This document shows positions 13,861-35,177 of a stretch of 64,000 nucleotides of DNA, piece after piece. The stretch's first letter is position 1. Each line of letters begins with the position of its first letter. A model generated the notes under the pieces. That model had not been told where the DNA came from, did no database searches, and worked only from the letters and a program-made list of their open reading frames with translations. The DNA is from Halovenus carboxidivorans (GTDB lineage Archaea > Halobacteriota > Halobacteria > Halobacteriales > Haloarculaceae): NCBI RefSeq assembly GCF_009831575.1, contig NZ_WUUT01000002.1:1-64000 (forward strand), in the 5' to 3' direction. Both the position numbers and the translations under genes were made by a program.

Positions 13861-14325
13861 TTACTCCTCGGTGCCTCGATAGTCGACCACCAGAACCGGG
13901 ACGTGTGTCGAGCGAAGCGTCCGCTCGGTGACGCTCCCGAGCAGCGCGCGCTTGACGCCCGCGCGGCCGTGGCTCCCCATCACGATGAGGTCGATGTCGT
14001 GGTCGTCGGCGTACTTGCCGATCATCGTGTGGGGTCGGCCGCCTTCGTGGTGTTCGACGACTTCGATGCCGTGTTCAGCCGCGCGGTCTGTCACGTATCC
14101 CGTCGCGGCCTCGGCCTCCTGGCGCAACTCGGTCATCTCGTTGAAGTTGCCCTGTCGGATCCGGTCGACCTGCTCCGTGCCGAGGGTGTACGCGATGGAG
14201 TCGGTATCGGCGACGTACAGCGCGTGAATCTCTGCGCCGTACTTTTCGGCCAGATCGATGGCCTGATCGACCGCCGCCTCGGCCACGTCGCTCCCGTCGG
14301 TCGGAACGAGTATTCGGTCGTACAT
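13861..14325 (-). CDS. universal stress protein (UspA family)
   Basis: A 154-residue alpha/beta nucleotide-binding fold. The opening YDRILVPTDGSD and the MGSHGRAGVKRALLGS segment give the G-2x-G-9x-G(S/T) nucleotide motif, which suggests the ATP-binding subtype. It starts 2 bp after the stop of the SSS symporter gene. UspA proteins are often found next to transporters in archaea and are thought to modulate them, so a regulatory role in substrate uptake is a fair inference. Confidence 0.9.
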   Translation of the reverse strand: MYDRILVPTDGSDVAEAAVDQAIDLAEKYGAEIHALYVADTDSIAYTLGTEQVDRIRQGNFNEMTELRQEAEAATGYVTDRAAEHGIEVVEHHEGGRPHTMIGKYADDHDIDLIVMGSHGRAGVKRALLGSVTERTLRSTHVPVLVVDYRGTEE

Positions 14326-14327
14326 GA

Positions 14328-16055
14328 TCAGTCACCCCCCGGATCGCTCGAATCGTCCGAGTCGACGGCCGTTCCGCCGTCAGTAACCGGCTGGTCGTCG
14401 TCGACGGGTTCGCCGCCGTCGGTCGCCGCGTCGCCGGCGTTGAGTTTCCGTTCGACGACTTCCGCGGCAGTGACGTTTTGGGCCATCTGCTCGGGACTGT
14501 GACACTGCCGGACCATCATCTTGGTCTTCTCGTCCGGTTCGGCAGTCGCGAGCGAGACACCGATCGTGATCAGGAACACGAGCGGCGTACCGGGCAGCGC
14601 CGCGCCGATTGCCGGCACGATGTCGCTGTACAGCGGACTGAACGGCTCGGAGAGAACGACATCGTTGACGACCGCGAGGATCCAGATCGTCAGACCGGTG
14701 AGCATCCCCGCCAGGGCGCCCTGGCGGTTCGTGTTCTCCCACCAGAGACCGAGGAAGAACATCGGGAACAACACAATCGCGGCCAGCGAGAACGCCAGCG
14801 CGACGAGTTCACCGATCAACGCCGGCGGGTTCAGCGCGGTCAGCGTCACCAGCGCGCCGATCCCGACGATGGTCGCACGACCGAGTAGCACCTGCTGGCG
14901 CTGGGTGGCGTCGGGGTTGATTAGCTCCGTGTAGATGTCGTGTGCGACCGCGGAGGAGGCCGTGATGAACAGTCCCGCCGTGGTCGCAATCGCGGCGGCC
15001 ATCGCACCGGCCGCGACGAAACCGACAAGCCACTGCGGCAGGTCGGCGAACTGCGCGGCCAGCACGACGATCACGTCACCTTCGGCACCGGTCATCCCGC
15101 CGTTGGCGACGTCTGCGAACGCGCTGGCTCCCTGCTCGGCGGCGAACAGATCGACACCGAGGGCGGCCATCGCGGGGGCCGACCAGTACAGGAGCATGAT
15201 GAAAAACAGCCCCGAGACGGTCGACCACCGGGCGGTCCGCTCGTTTTGGACCGTGTAGAACCGGACGAGCACGTGCGGCAGCCCGCAAGTACCGAAGATC
15301 AGCGAGAACGCGGTCGCAACCCAGAGGTAATAGCCCGCACCGAGGAACGGCTCCGAGAACTCCGTCGAGAGATCGTCGATCATCGCGCCGTACTCGATCT
15401 GGGGCAGGATCATCCCCTCGTGTACCCAGCCGACGGCGAAGACGCCGACGAGGAAGGCGACGATGAGGATGACGTACTGGACGGCCATGCCTTTGGTCGC
15501 GCCCAGCATGCCCGACAGCGCGAGGTAGCCGACGGTGATGGCCATCATGACGATCACCATCGGAACGAAATCGAGTCCGAAGACGTACTGGCCGACCAGC
15601 CCCATTCCGCTTGCCTGGCCGACCGAGTAGACGTACGCGATCAGAAGCGTCGTGAACGCGGCAATCGCGCGTGCCGTCGAGGAGTTGTACCGATCCCCGA
15701 CGAAGTCCGGCGCGGTGTACTTCCCGAACCGGCGCATCTGCGCGGCCAGGAAGATGAGCAGGACGAAATAGCCCGTCGTCCAGCCGATGACGAACGCCAG
15801 GCCGTAGAAGCCCGACAGGGCGATCAGCCCGGCGAGACCGAGATACGACGCCGCCGACATCCAGTTGGCGGCAATCGCCATCCCGTTTTCGATGTAGCCG
15901 ATGCCACGGCCGGCGACCCACATCCCTTCGGTGTCTGCGACCCGGAAGAAGTATCCGATTCCCAGGAACGACGCCATCATCAGGAAGACGATGGCCGCAC
16001 CGACCGGCTTGAACGAGATGTTCAGCGCGTCTGCCTGCAACAGCACGTCCATCAT
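14328..16055 (-). CDS. sodium:solute symporter (SSS family, acetate/short organic acid type)
   Basis: A 575-residue integral membrane symporter with about 13 hydrophobic segments and an acidic C-terminal tail (about 520-575). It resembles the ActP/VC_2705-type branch of SSS transporters (GYIENGMAIAANWMSAASYLG, FAQ-like segments). It overlaps the DUF4212 gene by four bases (ATGA) and lies downstream of acetyl-CoA synthetase, so sodium-coupled uptake of acetate or a similar monocarboxylate is likely. The substrate could also be propionate, pyruvate or lactate. Confidence 0.87.
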   Translation of the reverse strand: MMDVLLQADALNISFKPVGAAIVFLMMASFLGIGYFFRVADTEGMWVAGRGIGYIENGMAIAANWMSAASYLGLAGLIALSGFYGLAFVIGWTTGYFVLLIFLAAQMRRFGKYTAPDFVGDRYNSSTARAIAAFTTLLIAYVYSVGQASGMGLVGQYVFGLDFVPMVIVMMAITVGYLALSGMLGATKGMAVQYVILIVAFLVGVFAVGWVHEGMILPQIEYGAMIDDLSTEFSEPFLGAGYYLWVATAFSLIFGTCGLPHVLVRFYTVQNERTARWSTVSGLFFIMLLYWSAPAMAALGVDLFAAEQGASAFADVANGGMTGAEGDVIVVLAAQFADLPQWLVGFVAAGAMAAAIATTAGLFITASSAVAHDIYTELINPDATQRQQVLLGRATIVGIGALVTLTALNPPALIGELVALAFSLAAIVLFPMFFLGLWWENTNRQGALAGMLTGLTIWILAVVNDVVLSEPFSPLYSDIVPAIGAALPGTPLVFLITIGVSLATAEPDEKTKMMVRQCHSPEQMAQNVTAAEVVERKLNAGDAATDGGEPVDDDQPVTDGGTAVDSDDSSDPGGD

Positions 16056-16504
16056 TCAGCGACACCTCCGTCGGTCGCGGCCGCCTCTTCGGCCCCGCTG
16101 GGCGTCTCAGCGGTGGACTGACTGCCGATACCGTACTTCTCGTCGAGTTTGTCCCGCCGGTTCGCGTAGATCGCTGCAAGTACGAGCGAACCCGTCGGCG
16201 CCAGGAAGGCGACCGTGAAGTAATGCGCCGGGAAGCCGATGATCGACGCCGAGGTCATCGCGTCCGTGGCGAGCCAGGTGGCCGTCACCGGCCCCCAGGT
16301 CACGATGACCCAGGCGATGAAACTGCCCCAGATGAGCTTCAGGTGATCGCGCATGAAGCCCGTACTGGGCCTGAGCAGGTTGATCTCGACGTCCAGATAA
16401 TCGACGTCCTCGTTGCTCCCGCCGTCGGTTACGACATCCGGATCCCCTCCGGTCGGTTCTGCGTCTGTTCCCCCCGTCGTATCGTGTGACTGTGAATCGC
16501 TCAT
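16052..16504 (-). CDS. DUF4212 small subunit of SSS symporter
   Basis: A 150-residue protein with an acidic N-terminal extension of about 45 residues and then two membrane spans. Proteins of this DUF4212 type are regularly encoded directly before VC_2705-like SSS symporters and are annotated as the small subunit. The four-base overlap with the symporter gene supports translational coupling. It begins 24 bp after the acetyl-CoA synthetase stop. Confidence 0.85.
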   Translation of the reverse strand: MSDSQSHDTTGGTDAEPTGGDPDVVTDGGSNEDVDYLDVEINLLRPSTGFMRDHLKLIWGSFIAWVIVTWGPVTATWLATDAMTSASIIGFPAHYFTVAFLAPTGSLVLAAIYANRRDKLDEKYGIGSQSTAETPSGAEEAAATDGGVAE

Positions 16505-16528: not shown

Positions 16529-18505
<1,977 letters not shown>

Positions 18506-18558
18506 TGCAATTGAGACTGTACACAGAACCATAATAATGGGACAGGCTAACTATCATA

Positions 18559-18582
18559 ATCGTGCACTTTTTTCAGCACGAT
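18559..18582 (-). promoter_or_regulatory. inverted repeat between the regulator gene and acs copy 1
   Basis: ATCGTGC (18559-18565) and GCACGAT (18576-18582) form a perfect 7-bp inverted repeat with a 10-nt loop containing T6. It lies 54-77 bp before the acs start and 33-56 bp after the regulator stop. It could be an operator above the acs TATA region (about 18535) or a terminator of the regulator message. Confidence 0.4.
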
Positions 18583-18614: not shown

Positions 18615-20327
18615 TCACTCGTCGAGGATTTCGTCGAGGATGCTCTGTTGGGCGCGACGGAGGTGGTTGTGCAGCGTCGGTGAGGAGATATCCATCGATT
18701 CGGCGAGGTCCTCGGCGGTGCTCTCGCGCGGCCACTCGAAGTAGCCGGCGTGGTAGGCCGTTCGGATCACGTCCCGCTGTTTCTCCGTCAACTGTTCGTC
18801 GAGGAAATCACCGTGGGCGGGAGCAGTGCCGTTCGTCGTCGTCCGCTCCTGTTTGCTGCGGAGGTCGGCGCCGAACGTATCGTGGAGGGAGTCGTGAATC
18901 GCCCGCAGATCTGTTTCCGGCGCGAGTTCGCAGGTGAGCGTCGCCTGGCCGTCCGCTATCGTGAGGGCGGTGACTGTCCCGCCGCGGTCGGTGATCGTCA
19001 ACAGCGGGGAGGCCCGCGAGAGCGCGAGTTCGAGGACACCGCCGGACTCGTCGCTTCGGACCAATCGCGCGCTGTCGATACCGTCGATATCGGTCGCCGC
19101 CTCCAGGGCCTGTTGTGCCGGTGTCTGTTCGAGGTGGACGAAACAGAGCAGTCCCGCGTCGGTCGGTACGGCGCCGTCCAGGGTCAGCGAGGAGGCAAGC
19201 GACTGCGAGAGGTCGACGAGGGCCGCCCTGTGGTCGTCGTACTGGAACGTGACTTCGAGGACGACCCCGCCGAGGAGCAACTGTTTGCGGTCGACTGCGG
19301 TCAGCGCGAATCCGACCTGGCGTCCGAGCATCTCCAGCGCGGTCCGTTCGGGGTCGTCGAAGGCGCTGCTGGACTCGGACTGGACGACGAGCACACCGTG
19401 TTCGGTGTCGCCGTGAGCGATGGGGACGGCGGCCAACAGCCCGGATTCCTCGTAGTCGGCCGCCGGTCCCGGGTCGTTCGGGGCGACGAACGAGCGTCCC
19501 GTCTGGAGGGTTCGTCTGGCGATTCCCGAATCCCCCGCACCCTCGAACCGCTCCGGTGACCCGCCCGCGTGTCTCCGGACGACGACCCGGTCGCGTTTCG
19601 GGTCCGCTTCGAGAATCCAGGCCGCGGCGTACTGGTCGGCGGTCAACTGCTGACAGACCTGCCGTTCGACCGCCGACCGCGAGTTCGCCGGCGCCAGCGA
19701 GTCGACGATGCGGTCGATGCTGTCGACGACCTCGGGAAGCCGCCTGTCGGGGGCTGATTCGTTGTCGAGACGCTCGAAGGCCGCGGTCACCTCGGCCGTC
19801 GAGGGGCGAGAGAGCGCGGAGAGCAGCGAATCGACGCCTTCCCATCCGCCGACCGCGGTCACGACTCGAACGTCGACGCCGTGGTCGACCAGCAGTCTGT
19901 GTGCGAAATACTGCCGGAGAGTCGCCGGCGTCACGTCTTCGAGTTCGGGGAGGTCCGTCTCGGCTCTCGCGCGCTCCGTGATCTCCGCCACGAGCATCTG
20001 CAGTCGCCGCTCGCTCACGTCGATCACGGGGTCGCCCGAGTCGATGTCGTTCGAGTTGACGTACTGCCAGAACTCGCGTGCGAGGTCGGTGAGAAGCGGG
20101 ACTGTCCGCTCGCCGCCGTCGGCCTCTCGGACGGTCAGAAGATAGCGCGGTGTCGCGTCCTCGCCTCGGTCGGTCACATCTGCCGGCCTGATCCGCGTGA
20201 TCTCGCCGGCCCGAACGCCCGCCTCTCCCGCCAGCCGGACGAGCAACTCCTCCCGGTGGGTCCGACACGAGCGGCGTAGCCGTTCGTATCCGCGCGCGGA
20301 CAGTCGCGGGTTGTCCTCCCCATCCAT
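18615..20327 (-). CDS. Bat-type transcriptional regulator with degenerate tyrosine-recombinase N-terminal domain
   Basis: A 570-residue protein in three parts. Residues 1-180 have the tyrosine-recombinase fold pattern: R39 in AGVRAGE and R138 in TPATLRQYFAHRL match the two catalytic arginines, but the usual His before R138 is A135, the LGH His is G161, and no Tyr follows. Catalysis is therefore unlikely. Residues about 190-350 are a GAF domain, about 350-500 the bacterio-opsin-activator domain, and 515-565 an HTH_10 helix-turn-helix (LTEKQRDVIRTAYHAGYFEWPRE). It sits between two acs genes, all on one strand, so control of acetate activation is the likely role. Reading from 20417 adds a stretch without support; the ATG at 20327 is preferred. 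Confidence 0.85.
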   Translation of the reverse strand: MDGEDNPRLSARGYERLRRSCRTHREELLVRLAGEAGVRAGEITRIRPADVTDRGEDATPRYLLTVREADGGERTVPLLTDLAREFWQYVNSNDIDSGDPVIDVSERRLQMLVAEITERARAETDLPELEDVTPATLRQYFAHRLLVDHGVDVRVVTAVGGWEGVDSLLSALSRPSTAEVTAAFERLDNESAPDRRLPEVVDSIDRIVDSLAPANSRSAVERQVCQQLTADQYAAAWILEADPKRDRVVVRRHAGGSPERFEGAGDSGIARRTLQTGRSFVAPNDPGPAADYEESGLLAAVPIAHGDTEHGVLVVQSESSSAFDDPERTALEMLGRQVGFALTAVDRKQLLLGGVVLEVTFQYDDHRAALVDLSQSLASSLTLDGAVPTDAGLLCFVHLEQTPAQQALEAATDIDGIDSARLVRSDESGGVLELALSRASPLLTITDRGGTVTALTIADGQATLTCELAPETDLRAIHDSLHDTFGADLRSKQERTTTNGTAPAHGDFLDEQLTEKQRDVIRTAYHAGYFEWPRESTAEDLAESMDISSPTLHNHLRRAQQSILDEILDE

Positions 20328-20472: not shown

Positions 20473-22416
20473 TCAGTCACTCTGGGTGGCGGATTCGATC
20501 TCTCCGACGACTTCGGGATTTCGCAGCGCGCTCGTGTCACCGAGTTCGTTGCCGTGAGCGATATCGGACAGGAGCCGTCGCATGATCTTCCCGGAACTGG
20601 TCTTCGGAAGCTCCGGGGTGAAGACGATCCGATCCGGCCGGGCGAACGAGCCGATCTGTGTTTCCACGGCCTGATAGATCGCCTCCCGAAGCGCCAGTTC
20701 GTCGGCGGCGTCCGTGTCGGGGTTGGCGTAGGCGTAGATGCCCTGGTCCCGGCCGTCGTAGCCGCTGACAACTGCCGCCTCTGCGATGCCCTCGACGCCG
20801 ACGATCACGGATTCGAGTTCCAGCGTCCCGTATCGCCGCCCCGAGACGTTAATCACGTCGTCGACGCGGCCGAGAATCGTGACGTACCCCTCGTCGTCGA
20901 CGACAGCGCCGTCGCCGGTCATGTACGCCCACTCCGAGTCCGGGAGCACGCCGCTGGTCTCGGCCCACCGCGTCTCCTCGGAGAGTTCCCGGGGCATCCC
21001 GGGCCAGGGCGTCTCGATTGCGAGGTAGCCGCCGGTGTTCGGATCGACTTCCGCCCCGGTTTCGTCGACGACAGTCGCCTCGATGCCGGGGAGGGCCGGT
21101 CCCGCGGTGCCGGGTTGCATCTCGTCGACACCGGGGATGGTGGTGATCAGGTGGCCGCCGGTTTCGGTCTGCCACCAGGTGTCGACGACCGGGCACTCCC
21201 CGCCGCCGACGTGTTCGTACAGCCACTGCCAGACGTCCGGGTTGATCGGTTCGCCGACGGTCCCCAGCAGGCGCAGGCTGGAGAGGTCGTACTCCTCGGG
21301 ATACTCCTCGCCCCACTTCATGAACGTGCGGATCGCCGTCGGCGAGGTGTAGAGGATGTCGACGGCGTGTTTCTCGATCAGTTCCCAGAGTTTCGTCCGC
21401 GGCGGCTGGTCAGCCTCGCCCTCCCGCAGCAGGACCGTCGTCCCCAGCGCGAGCGGGCCGTAGACGATGTACGAGTGGCCGGTGATCCAGCCGAGGTCCG
21501 CGGTGCAGAGGTAGGTGTCACTGGGCTCGATGTCCAGAACGGCGTGACTCGTCCAGGCGGTGTGTGCGAGATACCCACCCGTCGTGTGGGTCACGCGTTT
21601 CGGTTCGCCGGTCGTCCCCGACGTGTAAATCAAAAAGAGTTCGTCGGTCGCGTCTCGGGGGACGGGATCGACCGTCTCGCCGCGGTGGTCGGCAAGCAGC
21701 CGTCGGTACTGGTGTTCGTCCGCGCCGAGGGGGTACTGGTGGTTGTCGCCGAGGCGGTCGACGACGACCGTCGTCACGTCCTGATCGAGTCCGGCGCGGA
21801 CCGTCTCCGCGCGGTTGGTCAGCGAGACGGCGTCACCGCGGCGGTAGTAACCGTCACTGACGACGAGATACGACGAGTTCGACTCCGCCATCCGCGTCGC
21901 CAGCGCCTCCGCCGAGAAACCGGCGTAGACGACAGCGTGGACGGCGCCGATCCGGGCACAGGCGAGCATCGTCACGAGGAGTTCGGGGATGACGGGCATA
22001 TGCAGCGTCACCACGTCGCCCTCCTCGACGCCGAGTTCTCGAAGCCCGGCGGCGACGGCGTTCACCTTCCGGGAGAGTTCGAGGTACGTGTCGGTTCGAG
22101 TCTCGCCGAGTTGCCCCTCCCAGACCAGCGCGCGCTGGTTCTTGCGCTCGTCGAGATGGCGATCCAGACAGTTGACAGAGGCGTTTAGCTGGCCGTCTGG
22201 AAACCAGTCACAGGCTTCGGCGTCGAACACTGTCCGGTACGGACGGTCCCACGTAAGGAGATCACCGGCCATCTCCCACGCGTCGACGCCCTCCTCGGTG
22301 AACCGGCGTAGCTGTCCCGGGGTAACGTTCGCTTGCTCGGCGAACGACTCCGGGACTGCGACCCGATCCGCGGGCAACTCCTCGGTTTCGATCTCGAACT
22401 CCTCACCGCCAAGCAT
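20473..22416 (-). CDS. acs: acetyl-CoA synthetase (AMP-forming), copy 2
   Basis: A full-length AMP-forming acyl-CoA synthetase of 647 residues from the ATG at 22416. YTSGTTGEPKRVTH, DTWWQTETGG and PKTSSGK (K610) are present. A TATAA sequence at 22449-22453 on the opposite strand is about 33 bp before this ATG and favours it over the ATG at 22467, which lies upstream of the box. Several loop differences from copy 1 suggest a different short-chain acid or a different expression window. It is 145 bp upstream of the Bat-type regulator, on the same strand. Confidence 0.9.
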   Translation of the reverse strand: MLGGEEFEIETEELPADRVAVPESFAEQANVTPGQLRRFTEEGVDAWEMAGDLLTWDRPYRTVFDAEACDWFPDGQLNASVNCLDRHLDERKNQRALVWEGQLGETRTDTYLELSRKVNAVAAGLRELGVEEGDVVTLHMPVIPELLVTMLACARIGAVHAVVYAGFSAEALATRMAESNSSYLVVSDGYYRRGDAVSLTNRAETVRAGLDQDVTTVVVDRLGDNHQYPLGADEHQYRRLLADHRGETVDPVPRDATDELFLIYTSGTTGEPKRVTHTTGGYLAHTAWTSHAVLDIEPSDTYLCTADLGWITGHSYIVYGPLALGTTVLLREGEADQPPRTKLWELIEKHAVDILYTSPTAIRTFMKWGEEYPEEYDLSSLRLLGTVGEPINPDVWQWLYEHVGGGECPVVDTWWQTETGGHLITTIPGVDEMQPGTAGPALPGIEATVVDETGAEVDPNTGGYLAIETPWPGMPRELSEETRWAETSGVLPDSEWAYMTGDGAVVDDEGYVTILGRVDDVINVSGRRYGTLELESVIVGVEGIAEAAVVSGYDGRDQGIYAYANPDTDAADELALREAIYQAVETQIGSFARPDRIVFTPELPKTSSGKIMRRLLSDIAHGNELGDTSALRNPEVVGEIESATQSD

Positions 22417-22448
22417 CTGTTCGTATGCGAAAACTACGGCTTCCCCTG

Positions 22449-22453
22449 TATAA
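22449..22453 (-). promoter_or_regulatory. TATA box of acs copy 2
   Basis: The minus strand reads GCTTATACAGG across this site. The position, 33-37 bp before the ATG at 22416, places the transcription start a few bases upstream of that codon. Confidence 0.5.
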
Positions 22454-22535
22454 GCGTTGGCACACATTTGAACTGTCTGATACTGGCTTCCGCGAGCCGC
22501 GGCGGTTTTGTCACCCGAGCACGAACTATCGGCCG

Positions 22536-33173: not shown

Positions 33174-35177
33174 TCACTCCGTCTCGAAGAACTCCTCGAG
33201 GAGTTTCCGCTGTGCCGCGCGGAGATGCTGGTGGTAGGTCTGTCGCGAGATATCCATCGAAGCGGCGAGTTCCTCGCCGGAGACCGGGCGAGGAAACTCG
33301 AAGTAATCGCTGAGATAGGCGGTCTCCAGAGCGGTGTACTGTCGGTCGGTCAGCCGGTCCGCGACCGCGGCGACGAACTCCGCGGTCGGTCGGGGGTCGC
33401 GCTCGCGTTCGTGCTGTCGGACCAGGTTCACTCCGTCGTAGACCGATTCCAGCTCCGAGAGCACCGAGCGCACGTCCCCTTCGACCGGGAGATCGATATG
33501 CAGTTGTGCGGTGTTCGAGCTCGCGGACACCGACAGGTCACGGAGGGTCGCCCCGTACTCGGCGAGTTCCCGGAAGACGCCGCCCTCGCGGATCTCGACC
33601 GAGGCGGCGAGCGTCTCCTCGCGCTGGGCGATCACGAACCCATCGGTGATCGTCTCGCACTGGGCGAGAATCTCCTCGAACTCGGCTTCACAGCCGGACA
33701 TCGTGACGAAGACCCGGAGGACGCTGTCGTCGGACAGCGTCGACCCGTTGTAGCTGACAGAGCCCTCGGAGACCTGTGCCAACTCGATCAGCGGGAACGA
33801 GTCGTCGGTGATCTCGAAGCCCAGCTCCGTCACCCGGTCCGCGGTGAGCACCTGCTTGGTCTCGACGGCGTTGATGCCGCTCGCGATCATCTGTCCGAGC
33901 GCCTCGAAGATCTTGCACTCTCGGCGGTCGAGAACGTCCGAGCGATCCGCGTAGACCGCGAGCACGCCGTACGTGGCCCGGCGGTAGGTCAGCGGAACGA
34001 CCGCCATCGAGCTCGCGTCGTAGTTCGACGGGGCGAGCGAGGCGGGCAGATCCCCGTCGCCGGAGACGACCTGGACGGTTCCCTGTTCGATCGCCTCCTC
34101 GAAGATGGCCGCGGACCACTCGCCGACCGCCTCCATCTCGACCGCCCCGTTTCGTCCCGTCTCGTCGACCGAGACGGTCGTTCCGGCGCCGGTCGCCCGC
34201 GACTGGCCGATCCAGGCGTGGCTGTAGCCGTCGGTCTGTGCGATCTCCGCGCACACCTCGCGTTCGATCTCCGCGCGGGTGCCGGAGTTGACCAGAATCT
34301 GGCTCGTCTCGTTGACGAGTCCGCTGATCCGGCCGAGGACCCGCTCTAGGGCCTGTCGCTCCTCGCGCAGCGAGTCGGCCCGCTGTGTCGCCACCGCCTC
34401 GGCCTCCTTCCGGTCGGTCACGTCGTTCTGGAAGCCGACGTAGTGGGTCAGGTTACCGTCGTCATCGAACAGCGGCGCAATCGTGACGTGGTTCCAGAAC
34501 GGCGTCCCGTCCTCGCGGTAGTTGACGACCTCCACGTCGACTGACTCCCGGTCCTCGATCGCCTCGCGCATCTCCGCGACCGCTTCCTCCTCGGTGTCCG
34601 GCCCCTGGAGAAACCGGCAGTTGCGCCCGAGCGCCAGTTCGGCGTCGTAGCCGGTCAGTTCCTCGTAGGCCTCGTTGATGTAGACCATCGGGTTGTCCGG
34701 CAGCGACGGATCGGAGATGGTTATCCCGATCGGCGCTTCGTCGACCGCTCGAATGATCGTCTCCGTCGTCGGCGTCGGGAGATCGTCGCTTTTCGCCCCG
34801 GTGATGTCCGCGATGGTGAGTTCGGACACCGTCTCGGCCAGTCGCGACGCCGTCGGAGGCTCGTCTTTCGGGATGTACGACGACACGCCCGCATCGATCG
34901 CCTCACTGGCGACGTGTTCGTCGCCGTGGGCCGTGTACAGAACGACCGGCAACGTCTCGTAGCTCTCCCTGATCTCGGCAAGCAGTTCGAGACCGGAGCC
35001 GTCTGGGAGCTGATACTCCGTCACGACGATGTCGACCCTGTTGTTCCGCAGGTTCACCAGCGCGTCAGAGACAGACTCGACAGCCGTGACTCGGCACTCC
35101 CGGTCCCTGAGTGCCGACACTGTCTCGTCGACGGGTCCGTCGTCGACGAGCAAGACTCGTGCTCGTACCACACACAT
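33174..35177 (-). CDS. bat: Bat-like activator: receiver-type domain, LOV-type PAS, GAF, Bat, HTH_10
   Basis: A 667-residue regulator. Residues 1-120 look like a response-regulator receiver with the DD pair (12-13) and K104, but E54 replaces the Asp normally phosphorylated. Residues 140-260 form a PAS domain with GRNCRFLQG (184-192), the LOV flavin motif whose Cys (C187) forms the photoadduct. A GAF domain (about 300-450), a Bat domain and an HTH_10 (LTDRQYTALETAYLSDYFEFPRP) follow. It lies directly downstream of hop and upstream of crtY. A role as oxygen/light-responsive activator of the rhodopsin genes follows from Halobacterium Bat. The ATG at 35177 has a TATA box 17-26 bp before it. Confidence 0.93.
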   Translation of the reverse strand: MCVVRARVLLVDDGPVDETVSALRDRECRVTAVESVSDALVNLRNNRVDIVVTEYQLPDGSGLELLAEIRESYETLPVVLYTAHGDEHVASEAIDAGVSSYIPKDEPPTASRLAETVSELTIADITGAKSDDLPTPTTETIIRAVDEAPIGITISDPSLPDNPMVYINEAYEELTGYDAELALGRNCRFLQGPDTEEEAVAEMREAIEDRESVDVEVVNYREDGTPFWNHVTIAPLFDDDGNLTHYVGFQNDVTDRKEAEAVATQRADSLREERQALERVLGRISGLVNETSQILVNSGTRAEIEREVCAEIAQTDGYSHAWIGQSRATGAGTTVSVDETGRNGAVEMEAVGEWSAAIFEEAIEQGTVQVVSGDGDLPASLAPSNYDASSMAVVPLTYRRATYGVLAVYADRSDVLDRRECKIFEALGQMIASGINAVETKQVLTADRVTELGFEITDDSFPLIELAQVSEGSVSYNGSTLSDDSVLRVFVTMSGCEAEFEEILAQCETITDGFVIAQREETLAASVEIREGGVFRELAEYGATLRDLSVSASSNTAQLHIDLPVEGDVRSVLSELESVYDGVNLVRQHERERDPRPTAEFVAAVADRLTDRQYTALETAYLSDYFEFPRPVSGEELAASMDISRQTYHQHLRAAQRKLLEEFFETE

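Follow-up and report, generated by a model that had tools for sequence, protein, structure and literature searches.

Proteins that join a tyrosine-recombinase-like domain (INT) to BAT and HTH_10 domains are already known. The family fam30-04, catalogued in 2021 among the tyrosine recombinases (Badel et al., PMC8371274), displays the Pfam architecture Phage_integrase, BAT and HTH_10, in some members together with GAF_2, and is matched by this architecture to the regulator reported here; in the passages of that paper that were searched, nothing is said of what the family does, of a loss of catalysis, of an acetate locus or of a binding element. Bat of Halobacterium, which activates bop and provides the precedent for HTH_10/Bat-type control, resembles the regulator in its GAF domain and C-terminal HTH, in its relation to an adjacent locus, which it activates, and in a promoter UAS (PMC3184054), whereas it differs in its PAS/PAC domains, in the lack of a recombinase fold and in the control of bop by light and oxygen. 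The recombinase XerA (PDB 5hxy, 4a8e) shares the catalytic-domain fold and the box I and box II arginines, but it possesses a core-binding domain, the lysine, both histidines and the tyrosine, and it recombines DNA. In eukaryotes, domesticated Crypton and ALOG proteins exhibit recombinase-derived domains reused in host proteins, some of them regulators, although these domestications are eukaryotic and independent (PMC3212892, PMC3537659).

The acetate enzymes and the acetate transporter of Haloferax have already been characterised, but the open literature searched yielded no protein that regulates the acetate operon of haloarchaea. The protein described here is, with high likelihood, a Bat/HTH_10-type activator dedicated to the haloarchaeal locus for acetate uptake and activation, class-wide and built on a dead recombinase. 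The family-wide loss of Lys and His relative to intact relatives, the class-wide link to the operon and the cis-element together with its co-occurrence with the regulator are new; they provide a candidate regulator, operator and operon for the haloarchaeal acetate switch across the whole class, and very probably exemplify the recruitment of an enzyme fold from mobile DNA to gene regulation, with intact relatives that allow comparison.

Domain Organization and Recombinase Fold of the Regulator

The regulator gene occupies positions 18615..20327 on the minus strand of the window (the whole 64,000-nucleotide stretch of DNA analysed), begins with an ATG at 20327 by the ORF check and encodes 570 aa arranged as INT(dead)-GAF-BAT-HTH_10, as supported by ORF, Pfam and orthologues. 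The four domains (Phage_integrase, GAF_2, BAT and HTH_10) each exceed the Pfam cut-off, with Phage_integrase matched at residues 14–165 (35.2 bits against a cut-off of 27.1). The tyrosine-recombinase catalytic-domain fold, catalytically degenerate, encompasses residues 8–186 (19770..20306, minus; Pfam, AlphaFold, PDB 5hxy) and is followed on the same strand by the GAF domain at residues 219–342 (19302..19673; Pfam GAF_2 E 1.5e-13, matching GAF structures), the BAT domain at residues 356–501 (18825..19262; Pfam E 1e-32) and the HTH_10 DNA-binding domain at residues 513–564 (18636..18791; Pfam E 1.5e-22), the last of which is weakly predicted in the full-length regulator model (pLDDT ~50). The open reading frame and the GAF, Bat and HTH_10 modules named in the preliminary description were thus recovered, the former on the minus strand and the latter by Pfam. 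The Bat-like HTH_10 features, BAT then HTH_10 and GAF before BAT, are both present, and no PAS domain was detected by Pfam in the window regulator; the assignment extends only to the HTH_10 regulators at large, since PAS is characteristic of Bat itself rather than of every such regulator. Members from Natrialbaceae and some others (L133, L149) harbor an additional PAS domain between INT and GAF. Elsewhere in the window, the minus strand at 33186-34361 encodes another GAF/BAT/HTH_10-related protein, which shares 27% identity with the C-terminal portion of the regulator.

XerA was the top PDB sequence match of the N-terminal part. The E-value of the recombinase match was 1.4e-8 for the single protein and, with a family profile, 1.9e-16 to XerA. 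AlphaFold, run on 81 aligned INT domains, returned a model with a pLDDT of 94.3 and a pTM of 0.88, for which the top Foldseek matches were the XerA 5hxy chains (TM 0.77–0.80 over the query), followed by integron integrase, Cre, XerH, Tn1549 Int and lambda Int. The likeness of the N-domain to tyrosine recombinases far exceeds chance, so that the tyrosine-recombinase pattern reported earlier for residues 1–180 holds by Pfam, XerA match and predicted fold; comparison of a predicted structure with XerA/integrase folds had been set beforehand as a refuting check, and a XerA/integrase fold was predicted. Because the protein has only about 8 residues ahead of this domain, it possesses the catalytic domain alone and lacks a core-binding domain. 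A phage collection yielded no match for the INT domain nor for a free-standing relative, and a viral source of the domain is therefore not claimed. In the tree, a single branch sets the fused INT domains apart, with a bootstrap of only 63 (it recurs in 66% of the bootstrap trees), and a single origin is therefore likely.

Catalytic Residues of the Fused Family and Its Free-Standing Relatives

By sequence, the INT domain is closest to free-standing haloarchaeal integrases of about 200 aa, which are ~30–42% identical to it, single-domain and marked by GGW at the third position, but which differ in having the complete R-K-H-R-W-Y set and in lacking RRxQM. Such single-domain integrase relatives are frequent in haloarchaeal genomes; one of them, G000:C4:277844-278398 (L007), is a free-standing tyrosine recombinase of 206 aa that consists of the catalytic domain only and has every catalytic residue. 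The window domain, XerA, XerD, Cre (P1 record), 127 fused relatives and 30 free-standing integrases were aligned, and further counts were made on 67 relatives whose retrieval did not depend on a motif (the unbiased set). Against Cre, the correspondences in the window protein are R39=R173, E42=E176, A135=H289, R138=R292, W162=W315 and A171=Y324. The box I Arg (R39), the box II Arg (R138) and W162 at the His/Trp-III position are thus retained, and the beta-hairpin Lys is absent, the hairpin being shortened and its Lys loop deleted. The catalytic residues are highly conserved in the free-standing integrases (R 30/30, K 28/30, H 30/30, R 30/30, W 29/30 and Y 29/30), whereas the Lys is found in 0/127 and the HxxR His in 2/127 of the fused family. 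Within the unbiased set, R39 is conserved in 62/67 and R138 in 67/67, the W162 position holds Trp in 58/67 and Tyr in the other 9, and the Tyr nucleophile is retained in 26/67. Tyr loss is thus not general to the fused family, unlike the near-universal loss of Lys and His. The loss of the box I Arg in 5 of the 67 and the Tyr that some members have in place of Trp162 count against the preferred reading.

The earlier reading of the catalytic site was correct in most of its positions: R39 and R138 are retained, A135 stands in place of the catalytic His (aligned with Cre H289), and the nucleophilic Tyr is missing from the window protein, with A171 at that position. It was one residue off in assigning a lost second His to G161, since the true position is W162, which aligns with Cre W315 and is not lost, and it overlooked the Lys loss. 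Homologues with intact catalytic positions had been named as a second refuting observation, and 0 fused homologues with an intact catalytic set were found. With the Lys loop deleted, the HxxR His replaced by Ala135 and the Tyr by Ala171, catalysis is almost certainly lost in the window protein. That the gene encodes a site-specific recombinase or invertase that still works and has gained a regulatory tail is exceedingly improbable, for although the recombinase fold and the partial retention of Tyr (26/67) are in its favor, the Lys hairpin is deleted in essentially all members, the His survives in 2/127, the window Tyr is Ala, the core-binding domain is lacking and the chromosomal position is conserved. 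An active recombinase was thus rejected on the Lys/His/Tyr loss.

Conservation and the Putative Recognition Helix

Differential conservation was observed among the domains of the regulator, with mean majority-residue frequencies of 0.59 for INT, 0.51 for BAT, 0.42 for GAF and 0.81 for HTH_10, and with 35 of the 178 INT columns at ≥90% majority residue. By this measure the catalytically dead INT domain is not decaying but is under strong constraint, and it offers a clear prokaryotic case in which a tyrosine-recombinase catalytic domain has lost its chemistry and been kept by strong selection in a transcription factor. It contains the stretch V104-x-x-R107-R108-x-Q110-M111 (19995..20018, minus); the contig scan used the RRxQM motif, and its invariance was therefore checked in the 67 sequences found without the motif, where V104, R107, R108, Q110 and M111 are invariant (67/67), while being atypical of free-standing relatives. 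The VxxRRxQM region aligns with helix J of Cre (Cre L256, R259, A260, E262 and G263), with R107 and Q110 opposite R259 and E262 on that helix. Helix J is the base-reading helix of Cre. The alignment favours a DNA-reading role of the INT domain, and the INT module probably still grips DNA, because the fold, the paired active-site arginines and the invariant putative recognition helix are kept.

A tentative alternative keeps the locus-specific regulator but places its INT fold off DNA, where it would serve in dimerisation or ligand binding and leave the promoter element described below to HTH_10 alone; in the ligand version, held with equal reserve, the INT Arg pocket would hold a phosphate or carboxylate, such as acetyl phosphate, acetyl-AMP or CoA. 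Both active-site arginines and W162 have outlasted the residues needed for chemistry, the domain stands at the N-terminus, where Bat carries its PAS sensors (PMC3184054), Natrialbaceae-type members add PAS between INT and GAF, and the element is single and compact, readable by one DNA-binding domain, all of which are consistent with such a module; an invariant VxxRRxQM on the counterpart of Cre helix J would nevertheless be odd for a pure sensor. Taken together, the role of the INT fold leans to DNA or phosphate binding as judged from the aligned residues.

Gene Order and Distribution of the Acetate Locus

The regulator lies within a cluster of minus-strand genes, downstream of acsB, a second acetyl-CoA synthetase (20473..22467; Pfam, conserved position), and upstream of acsA, the acs7-type acetyl-CoA synthetase that forms the first gene of the operon (16529..18505; Pfam), which is followed by a DUF4212 protein, the probable symporter partner (16052..16504; Pfam), an actP-like sodium:solute symporter (14328..16055; Pfam SSF, conserved position) and a universal stress protein, usp, the last gene of the conserved cluster (13861..14325; ORF, conserved position). 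The earlier statement that two same-strand acs genes flank the regulator agrees with this arrangement, both being acetyl-CoA synthetases by Pfam. The longest acsA ORF extends over 16529-18532, but its start falls within the TATA-like box, so that the true start is probably 18505, as homologue starts also indicate; this start would suit a leaderless transcript.

Of 391 sampled genomes of the class Halobacteria, 284 have an N-domain match with an E-value of 1e-10 or lower, a count that includes some free-standing relatives, and the order acs-regulator-acs was observed in 70 of 80 named loci. Wherever the sequence continues in these 80 loci, the downstream neighbour is acs, or DUF4212-actP if acsA is missing. 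In two loci (L168 and L178, from a metagenome bin and Halorubrum kocurii), the regulator gene appears split into at least two frames, by pseudogene formation or sequencing error, and its own second piece precedes the next gene. The gene order acs-regulator-acs-DUF4212-actP-usp is conserved across the class Halobacteria, with the full cluster in Haloferax, Natrialbaceae, Halobacterium, Haloarcula and Halorubrum. The same order is found on a plasmid of Haloferax alexandrinus in RefSeq, where the regulator is annotated as 'bacterio-opsin activator domain-containing protein', and in H. volcanii a single gene number separates acs8 (HVO_A0158) from acs7 (HVO_A0156), so that the regulator there is, by position, presumably HVO_A0157. 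Northern analysis of H. volcanii detected the 4.6-kb acs7-A0155-actP-uspA28 transcript on acetate but not on glucose or casamino acids (PMC7746861). In H. mediterranei, both acs genes of the cluster are up only ~3-fold on acetate, which counts against the reading of a dedicated activator (PMC11784441). Nine acs-DUF4212-actP operons without the regulator were observed, in genera g30, g58, g40, g85 and g34, and the acetate genes can thus run without it. Among the regulator-less operons of genus g30 (L266-L270), a different GAF-BAT-HTH_10 protein is encoded ~2.5–4.5 kb upstream, which is a possible replacement regulator.

TATA-Proximal Promoter Element

A putative UAS, TTATGATAGTTAG-N9-TTA, was identified by motif scoring between the regulator and acsA at 18535..18559 (minus), its last bases belonging to the TATA-like box that precedes the acsA operon; its consensus is TTnnnMYARYTAG, N9, then the TTA of the TATA-like box. 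The element model was built by iterative refinement with leave-one-out scoring and with dinucleotide shuffles as control; of 65 non-redundant loci, 63 score above the shuffles' 99th percentile on the forward strand and 0 on the reverse. The window element scores 19.5 bits, whereas the runner-up site in the 64 kb scores 0.4, and it is the sole exact match in its genome. In H. alexandrinus, held out of the model, the element lies 56 bp before acs, and in the loci without acsA (L063, L069, L072 and L074) it precedes DUF4212-actP. Among the 56 exact matches in 145 genomes, at least 37 fall 1–3 kb from the regulator N-domain on the gene's own strand, by a comparison of coordinates made by eye; exact matches over these genomes are not more numerous than those of the reversed-pattern control, only their location being special. 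A genome-wide regulon acting through the element was considered and rejected, there being one exact site in the genome and a 145-genome total within that control, as was autoregulation through the same element, with 0 elements upstream of the regulator in 80 loci.

Of the named loci that have the regulator and could be scored, 74 of 75 contain the element, as against 0 of 9 acs-actP operons that lack the regulator (Fisher p 2.7e-11, kinship ignored), and within-genus contrasts agree (G269 vs G181/G236). This distribution weighs against control of the element and operon by another regulator, either a different HTH_10 protein or a TFB/TBP variant, to which the neighbouring gene would be linked by operon history; the many HTH_10 proteins in the genome supply candidates for it, and we regard it as improbable. 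The regulator is instead very probably the dedicated switch of the acetate genes, because it lies mid-cluster and a matching DNA signal precedes the genes; its earlier proposed control of acetate activation gains support beyond adjacency from the gene order, the regulator-tracking element and the acetate induction in H. volcanii.

The placement of the element bears on whether such a switch would activate or repress. A repressor would sit on the element beside the TATA box and block TFB/TBP until acetate appears, and a protein bound to an element that abuts the TATA-like box could also occlude TFB. The element is, however, on the upstream side of the TATA-like box, an activator position, and the HTH_10 precedent is activation, which make repression unlikely. 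Bat at bop and like activators use the upstream side of TATA. For the preferred reading of a dedicated activator, we infer that GAF senses a metabolic signal, that the predicted element next to the TATA box, on its upstream side, is bound by HTH_10, either alone or together with the recombinase fold, and that the bound regulator activates the acs-DUF4212-actP-usp operon when acetate needs uptake and activation; the recombinase fold would contribute DNA grip or dimerisation. The predicted element may also represent an acetate-responsive promoter part for haloarchaea.

A perfect 7-bp inverted repeat, ATCGTGC-N10-GCACGAT, overlaps the 5' end of the element in the window (18559-18582, minus) and was not common to relatives in the alignments inspected.

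Second Upstream Inverted Repeat

Another inverted repeat, CTARnnnnYTAG, was observed farther upstream. It occurs in 40 of 73 named loci, where 0.4 would be expected, such as L120, L126 and L284:9744, where it sits in the regulator-acsA intergenic region, mostly 108–198 bp upstream of the TATA-proximal element; it is absent from the window, from the Haloarcula loci examined and from Halorubrum. The distances from repeat to element recur at intervals of about 11 bp (p 0.02 when each distance is counted once, kinship ignored), which does no more than suggest helical phasing relative to the first element. From the frequency and the ~11-bp spacing of the repeat, a two-site, same-face arrangement is possible, though not general. 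On this basis the regulator might be a two-handed binder resembling lambda Int, in which the dead INT fold and HTH_10 would each read a site and synapsis of the recombinase kind would have become a looped activation complex for a metabolic operon, a proposal that we consider rather doubtful; the two sites would be CTARnnnnYTAG, present in about half of the loci, and the TATA-proximal element, an assignment held as loosely, with the recurring ~11-bp spacings between them.
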